64,000 bases of DNA from Polytrichum commune (taxonomy: Eukaryota; Streptophyta; Polytrichopsida; Polytrichales; Polytrichaceae): contig OX485809.1 in the NCBI GenBank assembly GCA_950295325.1, positions 27,714,001 through 27,778,000 on the forward strand, in the 5' to 3' direction. The notes under the pieces were generated by a model. It had not been told where the DNA came from. It saw only the letters and a program-made list of their open reading frames with translations, and made no database searches. Of this stretch, positions 6,356 through 63,304 are shown one piece after another. The position numbers and the translations under genes are program-made. Positions within the stretch are counted from its first letter, which is position 1; each line of letters begins with the position of its first letter.

Positions 6356-6724
6356 CGGGCACTACGGGCCTTGGCTTGGTGGTTAGGGCTCATGGCCCCC
6401 AATGAGGAAGTTGTGGGTTCTATTCCCCATGCCGGTGTGGTGCTCACCACCTTAGTCCACCCAATTATGGTGGGGGGTCCTTGGACCTTGTTGTATGGGT
6501 ACCTCAAAGCCCTTTGGGGGGATACCATGTCCGGTATCTTCAAGGCACTAGTGGCTAGCTAGGAACTTGTATAGTCTGTCACTATAGTGTCCATCCTCGA
6601 AATGGGAGAGTAGTATTTGTCCCAATGTCCCCTTGTCCAGTGGGCATCGGGTCATTGGCATTACGAACGGACACTTTATTCACGCCGGCCCCTTGCTTGA
6701 AAGGGGTTGGAGTTTCTATCTATC
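6356..6724 (+). mobile_element. tRNA-derived SINE, copy 1, with TSD
   Basis: The head carries an A-box-like segment (TTGGCTTGGTGGTTAGGGCT near 6370) and, about 45 bp on, a B-box-like GGTTCTATTCC near 6417. This is the pol III promoter layout of tRNA-derived SINEs. The element ends in a short CTAT repeat. An 11-bp direct repeat TATAAAATTCA flanks it exactly (6345-6355 and 6725-6735), which marks target-primed insertion. The unit is 369 bp. A second copy lies at about 37,708-38,060. Confidence 0.8.
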
Positions 6725-25103: not shown

Positions 25104-28100
25104 ATGGCTTACATGGCAAGGGCACCGGACAAGGGGTTGTTGGGAGGGTTGAGGAGGAGTGTGAGCATTCCAACAGCAGCTGCAACGTCAGCTATGTCAC
25201 CCACAGACTCCATGAGCTCACTGTCAAGCCTGGAGAAGCTAATGGAGCCTGCAGGGATGAGCTCCAGCTGCTCCAGCCCCAATGCTGCTGCTGCCACTGC
25301 CACATTCTCATCTTCCCCAGGAGGGTGGCAGACAACACTGGACATGCAAATGTGCGGTGGTGGTGGAGGAGGAGGTCAAGCTGCTGGGTCCTTCGGAGAT
25401 TTGCTGGGAAGCATGCATTGTGGTTCTTCTGCCAACAATGACTGGCAACAGTACTTGGATGCCAAACCTCGCTACTCCACCACCAGCTGCAACTTGCCCC
25501 CTGTGTCAATGCCCATGTCGATGTCAACAACGGGGGGTTCAAGTTCCCGGGGCATGGTGATGATGATGGAGGGGGCTAGGATTCGAGAGAGCTTGGGTAA
25601 TGGTCATGGTAATGGAGGAATCGTTAGGTCGAAATGGTGTCCCATGGAGACAAGTGGGATCACCGTAGATCCTTCCAAGGGAGGGTTAGCCCTGCAGGGG
25701 GTGGGGCTCGCAACGTCACATTGCTTGGCACAGTTCACATCTGATCCTGGCTTCGCAGAGCGAGCAGCCAAATTCTCCAGCTTCGGGAGCGGAGCCTACC
25801 ACAACAATAACAGCAGCAGCAGCAGCAGCCTCCACAACTATCTGCACAGCTCGCAGATCGCACAACCGCTGCCTGTGCACGAAGGGGGTTCCAAGGGGCG
25901 AGCTGGCTCTCGATCCAGCGAAGTGAGTAGTGGCAAGCTCTCCAGGACCTCGAGCTGTCAAAACTCCGGGGCGGTGAAGAAGATGGGGATGGCTGTGGCA
26001 GCTGAGCTATTGGAGGCCAAAGTGAAGGAAGTTAGGGAGGTTGTTGGTGACGACAAGAGCCTGCCGGGGGCAGTTGAGTTGGAAGCCGTTGAGGGAGCAG
26101 CAGCAGCAGCAGCTACTTTGGCCCATGAGGTTGAAGACGTAGCAGCAGCAGCAGCAGCACAACAACAACAGGAGAATCATTCTTCCTGTGCGGAGGAGCA
26201 TCACCATGGTGCAGGATCACCCGCTGGGAGCCTCGACAGTGCTCCTCGCAAGCGGAAGAGTCCAGCAGCAGACAAGCACGACCGCCATGCCTGCAAGGTA
26301 CTCACTTAACCTACTTCTTCATTCTCGTTCCTGTTCTGTTCTCCCGAGGATTGAACTGCTGCTTGCTCAATGTCGATAAATGAGCCGAGGTTTTGATGAC
26401 ACCATTTTAAAGGAGACAATGTAGAGCTGCAGTAGATGCACACTCTTCTGGAGAACTTTGGAGAAAGTTGTACTCCGAGTCATTCTCTTTCTTTTCTCCC
26501 AAAGAAGAATGTGCTGCTTCAGAATGTTGATAAATGACCCGAGGTTTTGATGACACCAGTTTAAAGGAGACCACGTAGAGCTGCAGCAGATGTCACTCTT
26601 CTGAAAAACTTGGAGAAAGTCTAAGCCCCTTATTGTCGTTTCTGCTCTGCCAAAGAGGAATGAGGTGCTGCAAAATGTTGATAAATGACCTGAGGTTTTG
26701 ACAACATTTTAAGGAGACAATGTAGAGCAAAAGATGTCACTCTTTGGGAGAAGTTGGAGAGAGTCTACCTCTGAGGAATGCCATTCTCTCTTTCTGTGCT
26801 CCCAAAGAGGGATGTGCTGCTGCAGAGTGCTGATGAAATGACCTGAGGTTTTGATGACGCCATATTAAGGAGACAATGTGGAGCTGCAGCAGATTTCACT
26901 CTTTTGGAGAACTTGGGAGAAAGTGAACGCGTCTAATGTTTTGAGTTGGCAATCGATGGTGAAAGCAGGTGTCAGATGCGGGGGACTCCAAACCTAAGCG
27001 GTGTAAGGGAGAAGACAGTCGGATGATTGACAGGGACGATGCGAAACATTCTAAGGCGGAGAGGAGCTGTAGTGAGAACTCGGGTGACGAGTCGGGTAGC
27101 CCAAGAGGGCATCACCGAGAGAGCAACAAGTCCAAGGAGACGCTCTCCAAACAAGATTTCATTCATGTGCGTGCCCGCCGAGGCCAAGCCACTGATAGTC
27201 ACAGCCTTGCGGAAAGGGTAAGAAGCCTCCCACATCCAAACAGCAGCAATGATGCGTGATGCATCATCCCTTCATGTGATTTGCCTCCATACTGGGAATC
27301 GTCAGAAAAATTACACATCCATTAATCACCCGAAATGTCTGACCTTGGATATATTGCTTGTTACATTCACAGGTTCGTAGGGAGAAGATTAGTGAGAGGA
27401 TGAAGTACTTGCAGGACCTAGTCCCAGGCTGCAGTAAGGTTATAGGCAAAGCTGTCATGCTGGATGAGATTATCAACTACGTGCAATCCCTGCAGCGCCA
27501 AGTCGAGGTATCTACAATGTTGATCTCTCTCTCTTCATCATCACTATAAAAAATGTGGCCAACGAGCAATTTTGATATATTTTGGTGTGATTTCTGCTTG
27601 CGTCGGTGCTTGCAATCTCTGAAGCGTCTCGCTAAGATTCCTGTGGTTTTCCCTGCAGCACCTTTCAATGAAACTGGCTTCCGTCAACCCCGGGCGCCTG
27701 GACTTCAATCTGGAGAGTGCCTTGAACAACAAAGACTCAGTATGTTGCAATAATCCAAGCTCTTGTGGCACCTCTCCTATTTCACTTAGTGAGATCAGGG
27801 TGGCTTAAACCCATTGGATGGGTGACCTCCCTGGCACTTGAATTCCAGTGCACCCTACCACATATGCCCCACCCAATCATGGTGGGCTATCTGGCTGAAC
27901 ATTATATTTTTAATCAACCATATGGAAACCTAGGGACTTTCCCTCGGGAAAGATAGGAAAGATAGGTGCCGGCCCGCTTGTTTATGCCAGCTCGTTCAAG
28001 CTGTTTACCTTGGAAAGGAGGCAGTTCTATAGAGGCAGTAGTCGCGGGGGGCCTCTAATGTTTGTATGTAATGTCCATTTCAGGATTACATATAGACTTA

Positions 28101-28911
28101 GACCAACTCTAAAATGAAGCAAAAGCATAATTCATCCCGGTGACGACATCAGAGTCATTTTTTTCTTTCTTTCTAGTGTGATGATGTGTCGATATTTCTT
28201 TGTCTGCCCCACACGAGCAATGTCTGATGATGTGTTTCTTATGCCAGATGTTGCAGTCGAGGTTTCTGTCATCTATCTTAAATGGTCCAGAGATAAATGC
28301 CACATATGGGCTACCTCAGCATCAGCAGCACCAGCAACAACAAGGGCCCATGTTGGGTGGACCCTGTGGCTTGGACTTTCGGACAATGGGAAGCGCGGTA
28401 GACACCTACCTCCGCCGCACCACAAGTGCCCCCATCACTGGACTTTCTGGCATAACTAATTCCATGGACACATTCGGTGATGATGCCTCCCAGGTGACTA
28501 ACCTACCCTTTCCTTTGAAATTAATAATAATTGGAAGTTTGAATGGCTCATTTCCATACATGCGATGTGATGTGATGATGTGTTGACATGTCGTAGCTTC
28601 GGAAGGCAGGATCACCAATGATAACCTGGAGTCTAATCTTTTGGCTGGCTCTTCATTGCAGTCGATTGGATGGGATGGCGAATTGCAAAGCATTGTTCAG
28701 ACAGGTTTCGGTCGGCTTGGATCGTCAATTCTTGATTCCAACCATTGTAAGTCACCTCCACCAACCACAACAACTTCCTAGTAGGTAATTTCTTTTTGCA
28801 AAACTTGGCGAAGCATGAAGTTTTTGAATCTTGCTCTGCACGGATTTCTTATGGGGTTGGTTTGGGAATGCAGGTCAATTGCCAGTGGGTCACATGAAGA
28901 TGGAGCTTTGA
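25104..28911 (+). CDS. bHLH transcription factor, group XII (bHLH49/62/74/76/78/CIB-like)
   Basis: Seven exons join in phase: 25104-26297, 26969-27217, 27373-27507, 27659-27739, 28248-28493, 28662-28746, 28874-28911 (675 aa). The bHLH domain spans about residues 467-530. The basic region [20 protein letters not shown] carries His476, Glu480 and Arg484, the H-E-R set that reads G-box/E-box DNA. The helix-loop-helix follows ([20 protein letters not shown], then [16 protein letters not shown]). The family motif [15 protein letters not shown] lies near 214-228, a basic PRKRK patch (possible nuclear signal) near 380, and the C-terminus GHMKMEL matches the group. The N-terminal half has Gly, Ser, Ala and Gln runs. 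Members act in the nucleus as dimers in growth and light responses. The start at 25104 (GGATGGC) is preferred over an in-frame ATG at 25044, whose extension is a Val-rich repeat translation. All splice sites are GT-AG. Confidence 0.93.
26325..26930. repeat. Four-copy tandem repeat (about 150 bp unit) in bHLH intron 1
   Basis: The phrase TGATAAATGACC-GAGGTTTTGA recurs at about 26,375, 26,528, 26,680 and 26,833. Each copy is followed by AAGGAGACAATGTAGAGCTGCAG and CACTCTT-GGAGAA. The copies have diverged by small indels. The array fills most of the 671-bp intron. Confidence 0.8.
27798..28173 (+). mobile_element. 5S-rRNA-derived SINE, copy A (internal deletion)
   Basis: It begins GGGTGGCTTAAACCC, then jumps to ATTGGATGGGTGACCTCCCT, which is the 3' internal promoter region of plant 5S rRNA. 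About 75 bp of the 5S-like head is missing compared with copy B. The body (CCACCCAATCATGGTGGGCT, CCTTGGAAAGGA, ACATATAGACTTAGACCAAC) matches copy B closely. The tail is a T/C-rich run. Imperfect 11-bp repeats TAGTGAGATCA (27787-27797) and TAGTGTGATGA (28174-28184) are the likely TSD. It lies in intron 4 of the bHLH gene, and its tail ends about 75 bp before the exon 5 acceptor. Confidence 0.75.
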
Positions 28912-37700: not shown

Positions 37701-37707
37701 CCTTTAG

Positions 37708-38060
37708 GCACCACGGGCTTGGCTTGGTGGTTAGGGCTCATGGCTCCCAATGAGGAGGTTGTGGGTTCTATTCCCCATGCCGGCGTGGTGCTCACCACCT
37801 TAGTCCACCCAACTATGGTGGGGGTCCTTGGACCTTGTTGTATGGGTACCTCAAAGCCCTTTGGGGGGATTCCATGTCCAGTATCCTCAAGGCACTTGTG
37901 GCTAGCTAGGAACTAGTATAGTGTGTCACTATAGTGCCCACCCCGAGAGGGGTTAGTAGTCCTGCACCACTGGTATTATGCCCTGAGGGTTTAATGCCAA
38001 GGGTGGGTCGAATAGGCATTCCAATCACGCTGATCACATGGTCAGCGTTTCTTCTTCTCC
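37708..38060 (+). mobile_element. tRNA-derived SINE, copy 2
   Basis: It carries the same A-box and B-box head as copy 1 (TTGGCTTGGTGGTTAGGGCT, GGTTCTATTCC) and is near-identical for about 240 bp, through GTGTCACTATAGTG. It diverges afterwards. The end is a T/C-rich run and the TSD is not clear. Confidence 0.7.
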
Positions 38061-62100: not shown

Positions 62101-63304
62101 CATCCGCCAACAACGAATTAATAAATCAACTTGCAAGAAAAAAAAGCAGCAAACTGAACCCTTCCAAATTAAGAAAACCACTAGAAACCCTGACCAATTT
62201 TCAGACCACATTTTCTCACTTTCTTATCAGGTTATGGCTAAGACAACATATATCACAAGCAATAGGTGATTGAATCATCAGCAAAGGTCACTATTACAAT
62301 GAAGGATCTTCCACTTAGAATCAAACAAACTTCTAAAAGTTAGGACTTCCACAAGCAAGTAGATTCTTGTAAATTTTTGCTATACTACAAAGAATTTCAG
62401 AACCACCCCTGCTCACCCTGATGGCTAGAATCTAATCTGAAGTAGCTGCAAAGAAAGAAAAGAAAAAAAAGATGACTACAATGTTGCCACCAGCATGCAT
62501 TACAGTGTTGCTTCATTTTTGAGTTGGTCTAAGTCTATATGTGATCCCAAAACAAGCATGACAAAAACTAGAGCCCCCAAAAGACTGTTGCTTCCTTTCC
62601 AAGGTTAACACCTTGAACAGGCGCAAACAAGCCAACCGGCCCCTATCTCCCCCAAGGGCAAGCCCCTACGTTCCCACATGGTCAGTCAATAATTTCCAGT
62701 TCACCCAGATACCCCCACTATGATTGGGTGGACCACAGGCAGTAGGGTGCACCAGAAATCAAGTGCTTTGAAGGTCACCCATCCAAGTATTATACTGTCC
62801 TTATGCAGCTTAACCTTAGAGTTCCCATAGGATCCAGGTTGAGGCCTTGGGTTTAAGCCACCCTATAACTGGCTGCAATCTCAATCTCAGAGGCAATTCG
62901 AAGCATTAAGTGACCAAAATTATTGATAAGGACACATTTATTGTCCAAGAGGTAGTGGACAAACCTGTCCAGAAACATTGTAAATCCGCCGAACACCTGT
63001 TTCCCAAGCCTCTTCATAGTTGCTGTATCGGGGTGCCACAACCTGCATTCAGATGAAAATTAAACTCAAAACAGCAAAAGAAAACCAGCCACTTAGATCC
63101 TCAACCAACTGGGTGTCATCCTGAAACAGGTGACTTTTAATAGCCCTATCCCAATATTGGCAAATGCTCTCATGCTCACAATATAAATCGCAATAGAGAC
63201 TTGCAATACTGTAATTTGCCAAGGTGGTGAATGATGTACCATGACACGATGTCCTCGTCGTGCCAATGCCTTTGGCAACGCTCCAACCACATCACCAAGA
63301 CCCC
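59139..63304 (-). CDS. SS2: Starch synthase 2, plastid (5' exons outside the window)
   Basis: Six exons join in phase: 63240-63304, 62965-63042, 61984-62094, 61793-61837, 60930-61103, 59139-60095 (475 residues, then TAA). This is a GT5 glycosyltransferase that adds glucose from ADP-glucose to the non-reducing ends of amylopectin chains in the plastid stroma. Visible motifs are [14 protein letters not shown] (ADP-glucose site, its Lys one exon upstream), [72 protein letters not shown] with [12 protein letters not shown] (second nucleotide-sugar site), and the C-terminus [24 protein letters not shown] and the ending AKYTW point to class II rather than class I or GBSS. The transit peptide, N-terminal arm and K-x-GGL lysine are missing because the gene runs off the right edge. 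Introns carry a 5S-SINE and MITE fragments, but no exon is damaged. Confidence 0.95.
61505..61612. mobile_element. MITE fragment, AAGGTAG family, in an SS2 intron
   Basis: CCCCCAATTGTGCTGACTTT through ATAGTCCAATATCTATGAA matches the right half of the copies at 30,650-30,720. Both ends are missing. Confidence 0.4.
62452..62863 (-). mobile_element. 5S-rRNA-derived SINE, copy B (full head)
   Basis: On the minus strand it starts GGGTGGCTTAAACCC and continues with GGATCCTATGGGAACTCTAA, GGTTAAGC, AGTATAATACTTGGATGGGT and GACC. These follow the order and spacing of plant 5S rRNA (GGATCCCATCAGAACTC, GTTAAGC, AGTAGTACTAGGATGGGTGA). The head is about 120 nt, then a non-5S body shared with copy A, then a T/C-rich tail. 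Imperfect repeats (AAGTAGCTGCAA at 62440-62451, AACTGGCTGCAA at 62867-62878) are the likely TSD. It lies in the SS2 intron between the exons at 61984-62094 and 62965-63042. Confidence 0.8.

Follow-up and report, generated by a model that had tools for sequence, protein, structure and literature searches.

A 5S rRNA-derived SINE family in a plant genome that also contains fusions of 5S rRNA to the tails of other SINEs

SINEs with a head derived from 5S rRNA have been described from fishes, mammals, insects and Aspergillus (including PMC3747384, PMC3272025 and PMC8010984) and are thought to have several origins (PMC10886601). They include SINE3 of zebrafish and other vertebrates (Kapitonov and Jurka 2003), and the moth element HaSE3, for which template switching to 5S rRNA has been proposed (PMC3272025). 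The literature describes SINEs of plants as tRNA-derived; the plant element that has a 5S promoter is Cassandra, which is of the LTR type. To our knowledge, 5S-derived SINEs have been known only from animals and a fungus, and a literature search that stopped short of Repbase and most subscription journals returned no report of a plant 5S SINE. The family described here is probably the first 5S-derived SINE from a plant, and its presence in a land plant, probably a seedless one, means that plants too can make such elements.

Copies in the window and across the genome

We analyzed a window of 64,000 nucleotides (C7:27714001-27778000) in an assembly of 407.8 Mb in 64 contigs, of which ~406 Mb is made up of seven large contigs. 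An earlier note on this window had proposed a 5S-headed SINE at 62452-62863. The genome search and an alignment of 40 copies place the element there, on the minus strand, with its 5S end at 62863 on the high-coordinate side, and we regard it as almost certainly a 5S-derived SINE. The 5S rRNA-like head, with the region of box A, the intermediate element (IE) and box C, occupies 62744-62863 on the minus strand (87.5% in a BLAST of the consensus head). It has a weak match to Rfam RF00001 at 62747-62877 on the minus strand, which at 19.4 bits falls under the gathering score; at gathering threshold Rfam gave no match in the whole window, the divergence of the head from the 5S model being too great. 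The non-5S body and T/C-rich tail that the note had seen proved to be a constant body and a (TTTC)n-type tail. In this copy the body lies at 62570-62743 and the 3' module at 62465-62569, both on the minus strand, the module holding a partly decayed hairpin (about 62478-62493) and then the tail, whose pyrimidine repeat is read from the sequence at 62452-62471 (minus strand). Comparison of the flanks gave imperfect target-site duplications (TSDs) on the minus strand, TTGCAGCCA on the 5' side (62870-62878) and TTGCAGCTA on the 3' side (62443-62451).

The copy is 84.8% identical to the CpG-restored consensus. A starch-synthase-like gene carries it within an intron, in the sense orientation, and the exons on either side translate to starch synthase. 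The second copy that had been reported in the window is at 27798-28174 on the plus strand and lacks ~60 bp within its head; its TSDs, AGTGAGATCA at 27788-27797 and AGTGTGATGA at 28175-28184 (plus strand), are also imperfect, with 8/10 identical bases. The note's reading of the genome as that of a plant is borne out by these starch synthase exons and by genes with a NAM domain, which we take to be that of the plant-specific NAC proteins. All 28 NAM candidates were scored and all are matches; each half of the domain accounts for 14 of them, which suggests about 14 NAC genes. This is few for a land plant with a genome of 408 Mb, and in flowering plants the number is far higher. Taken together with n = 7, the count suggests that the host is a bryophyte or another seedless plant, perhaps a moss such as the Polytrichum group, and probably not a flowering plant.

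A genome search with the 412-base unit, as the note had advised, revealed a dispersed family. Of 2135 first-look candidates 40 were scored; one of these is the window copy itself and the others match at 77-81% identity over nearly the full length. Aligning those 40 copies, each with 1-kb flanks, gave a CpG-restored consensus of 408 bp, from which the copies diverge by 9-18% overall and by 6-13% outside CpG. Judged by its sequence divergence (about 10% outside CpG), the family is old, and it is probably no longer active. Three separate 35-base patterns, searched genome-wide with at most 3 mismatches, were found at 275 (body), 232 (tail) and 356 (head-body junction) sites, while the reversed-pattern control gave 0 sites for each. 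At the 10-13% divergence of the copies, between one third and two thirds of them escape such patterns, and the counts taken with this missed share therefore put the true copy number probably at 700-2,000. Copies are single and dispersed over all seven chromosomes. Two loci show other arrangements: at L045:325-531 a full copy has beside it a short, diverged variant that consists of the 5S head and the tail and has no body, and at L050:119-250 two partial copies of a sequence related to the 5S SINE tail, but diverged from it, stand in tandem, perhaps from another family or the end of a LINE.

The boundaries of the family are sharp. Across the 40 copies, column identity is at background (~30-35%) upstream of the head, rises to 80-90% at GGGTGGCTTAAACCC, stays high to ...GGCAACATYGGAGTCGTCTTTCTTTC and then declines through the variable pyrimidine tail. 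Probable TSDs, noted earlier at the window copies, were examined by setting the 25 bases upstream of each copy against the 110 bases downstream: 12/40 copies had a strong TSD (score at least 9) vs 0.26% of mismatched pairs. TSD length is variable, about 7-14 bp, and clean TSDs are 9-14 bp (for example TTTCAGAGCTGACG, TCCAGAAAGCAAA and TGGTACAGCAAC).

These features bear on two other readings of the element. One holds that it is a Cassandra-type TRIM or a solo LTR, with the 5S segment contained in an LTR of a small retrotransposon, and Cassandra is indeed a known plant element with a 5S promoter, present in monocots, dicots and ferns (PMC10853983). However, the 40 copies have no sequence in common upstream of the head, they begin and end as GGGTGG...(TTTC)n rather than TG...CA, with a pyrimidine-repeat tail, and no LTR-like pairs flank them, the direct repeats there being mostly low-identity and local. 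The duplications of Cassandra are 5 bp, outside the range of those seen here. The note had named shared upstream sequence or paired LTRs as signs of a Cassandra-type element, and the 40 copies show neither. We therefore classify the element as a SINE and not an LTR element on its sharp ends, variable TSDs and absence of LTR pairs and TG...CA termini; Cassandra or a solo LTR was rejected on boundaries, TSDs and the absence of pairs, and we hold it to be highly improbable. Just as improbable is the reading that the copies are 5S pseudogenes (retropseudogenes) whose flanks are common by chance, such as a segmental or tandem repeat unit that carries a 5S gene. Dispersed near-intact 5S copies do exist in the genome, but here hundreds of dispersed single copies have the same 408-bp unit, sharp ends and TSDs, and plain 5S pseudogenes were rejected because the unit also includes a body and a tail that stay constant.

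The 5S head, the tRNA-like SINEs and the chimeras

The 5S rRNA of this genome is 119 bp long. The first ~124 bp of the SINE consensus align with it end to end, the element edge GGGTGG falling on 5S base 1, with a local score of 78 as opposed to a maximum of 26 in 500 shuffles. The best-aligned part, 5S positions 28-96 (~83% identity), is where boxes A, IE and C lie, in that order, as the note had stated from the window copy. We base the homology of the head on this comparison with the genome's own 5S because the Rfam 5S model scores single SINE copies weakly (19-35 bits). Several weak genome-wide matches of the 5S covariance model adjoin SINE pattern sites; that at C4:13464134-13464247 adjoins the junction pattern at C4:13464245, and that at C2:69383621 adjoins a tail pattern. 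Two further loci, C2:59433593-59433888 and C7:14288127-14288425, carry paired diverged 5S-like segments on the same strand, 182-183 bp apart. These pairs are too closely spaced for a typical Cassandra and are perhaps another 5S-derived repeat.

Near-intact 5S is scarce in the assembly: only 17 copies differ at no more than 3 of the central 34 bases, and these are dispersed over the chromosomes. Several of them have a common upstream stretch with a TATA-like CCAATATAA. The near-identical 5S genes (L074-L090) occur singly, with no tandem 5S array in the assembly; on contig C22 a 5.8S gene is present and no 5S match is listed.

The window also contains SINEs of another family. The one at 6358-6724 (plus strand) has a TSD TATAAAATTCA, a 3' hairpin similar to that of the 5S SINE and a block, described below, after its head. 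Its best-matching copies are 95-98% identical to it, clear TSDs (TATAAAATTCA, GCGAAACTCAAA and TGCACTCCATATT) are found in this young SINE, and the subfamily was probably active recently. We call its head tRNA-like because ARAGORN found no tRNA in the young SINE and Rfam gave only a weak tRNA-Sec match. A second tRNA-like subfamily, at 37707-38058 (plus strand), has a different 3' end, which also folds into a hairpin. At L070:1353-2102 a young tRNA-like SINE is inserted within a 5S SINE, which orders both insertions in time.

The tRNA-like and 5S SINEs have a block of 32 bp in common, ACCACCTTAGTCCACCCAACTATGGTGGGGG directly after the tRNA-like head and ACCACCTATGGTCCACCCAATCATAGTGGGGG directly after the 5S head, where it forms the first ~32 bp of the body. 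The similarity score of the block is 35, and the maximum in 1000 shuffles is 29. No similarity to the tRNA-like SINE was detected in the rest of the 5S SINE body. The tails have ATTCACGCCGG in common, 30/1000 shuffles score as well, and the sequence similarity of the tails, taken alone, is weak.

Three or four independent insertions among the 17 near-intact 5S copies join 5S to the tail of another SINE, mostly inside TSDs. In one case (L083/L084) a complete 5S is followed by TCTTTTCCT and then by the 3'-terminal ~60 bp of the tRNA-like SINE, within a TSD TGTTTTCGTAGA. These are the same loci as L058/L057, and because the flanks are common to both they are probably one insertion that was duplicated later. 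L090 has 5S and a related tail, separated by ~70 bp of another sequence, with TSD GATAGTC, and L086 has 5S and a short hairpin tail, with an imperfect TSD (ATATTGTGGA / ATATTGTAGA). At L087, 5S is followed by GTCTTTT and an entire tRNA-like SINE; no 8-bp TSD was found around it and none is clear. A complete 5S and a SINE tail within one TSD pair are the expected trace of template switching from SINE RNA to 5S rRNA. The tails of the chimeras belong to other SINE families, so that what is seen is the process and not the birth of the 5S SINE family. In these chimeras of 5S rRNA with SINE tails, nature has recorded how SINEs exchange their promoter head.

The same tail fold is predicted for the 5S SINE, the tRNA-like SINE, L058 and L086: a hairpin stem and, at its base, a 1x1 loop (a single unpaired base on each side) closed by AC and GU, with stem letters that differ. 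The tRNA-like SINE, the second subfamily and L086 have tails that fold significantly better than shuffles; the fold is not better than shuffles for the 5S SINE alone (z -0.71) or for L058 (z -0.08). Variation within the 5S SINE family is mostly CpG-type decay. From the comparison between families, a shared 3' hairpin is predicted with moderate confidence.

Proposed origin of the family

In the mechanism that we propose, RNA polymerase III would have transcribed the 5S SINE from the 5S internal promoter, the boxes of which can be read in the sequence. An L1-type LINE recognizing the 3' hairpin and the short tail repeat may then have copied the transcript by target-primed reverse transcription. 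Recognition of such hairpins has been described for a plant L1 lineage and for maize and sorghum SINEs (PMC3747384). The genome has 141 matches to L1-type zf-RVT domains, with open frames of up to 1845 aa and some above 1000 aa; the long open frames in the fetched loci, read by eye, showed no obvious LINE, the Pfam scan covering a few window frames. The family would have been born when a reverse transcriptase that was copying tRNA-like SINE RNA switched to 5S rRNA as its template, the 5S head thereby replacing the tRNA-like one.

We consider it likely that the family arose by such a template switch, given the present-day chimeras and the shared block. A genuine 5S SINE could also have been born by direct fusion of a 5S gene with a LINE tail, the tRNA-like head never having been replaced and the block having been acquired separately. 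This would fit a body of which only the 32 bp are clearly common with the tRNA-like SINE, the rest being dissimilar as far as could be detected, but in both SINE families the block stands directly after the Pol III head, and the present-day chimeras join 5S to SINE RNA. Direct fusion is therefore rather doubtful in our view. We lean, on balance, towards the wider reading that this is the first plant 5S-derived SINE lineage described, in a genome where SINE reverse transcription repeatedly captures 5S rRNA, so that several chimeras, independent and still young, let such a birth be followed.

Comparison with known 5S-derived and plant elements

The plant element differs from each known system in part of its structure. 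Cassandra TRIMs are likewise plant elements that use a 5S-type Pol III promoter, but they are LTR retrotransposons with the 5S inside the LTRs. A SINE3 ancestor has been postulated to have supplied Cassandra with its 5S segment (PMC10886601), and the 5S SINE is an element of that kind, the likeness being one of type. SINE3 and the DeuSINEs AmnSINE1 and OS-SINE1 have, as here, a 5S promoter at the 5' end, together with a LINE-type tail such as is predicted for the plant family (PMC3747384); the likeness is one of description and not of sequence, and their tails are of the CR1/RSg-1 LINE type and they have a Deu body domain, unlike the plant family. ZmSINE2/3, with LINE1-1_ZM, resemble it in a similar 3' hairpin with compensatory changes and in T-type tails, and have an L1-clade partner such as is proposed here (PMC3747384), but their head is tRNA and their partner LINE has been demonstrated.

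The closest known case is the insect HaSE3. This element of Helicoverpa armigera, like its lepidopteran relatives PxSE4/PxSE5, has boxes A, IE and C in a head derived from 5S (PMC3272025, PMC8010984), and PxSE4/PxSE5 are, at 389 bp, similar in length to the plant element (PMC8010984). The hosts are insects, and the likeness is again drawn from description rather than from body sequence. HaSE3 has its body and tail in common with a tRNA-derived SINE, whereas the plant family has only the short block and a similar hairpin in common with the tRNA-like SINE. In contrast to these insect elements, chimeras with near-intact 5S are directly visible in the plant genome.
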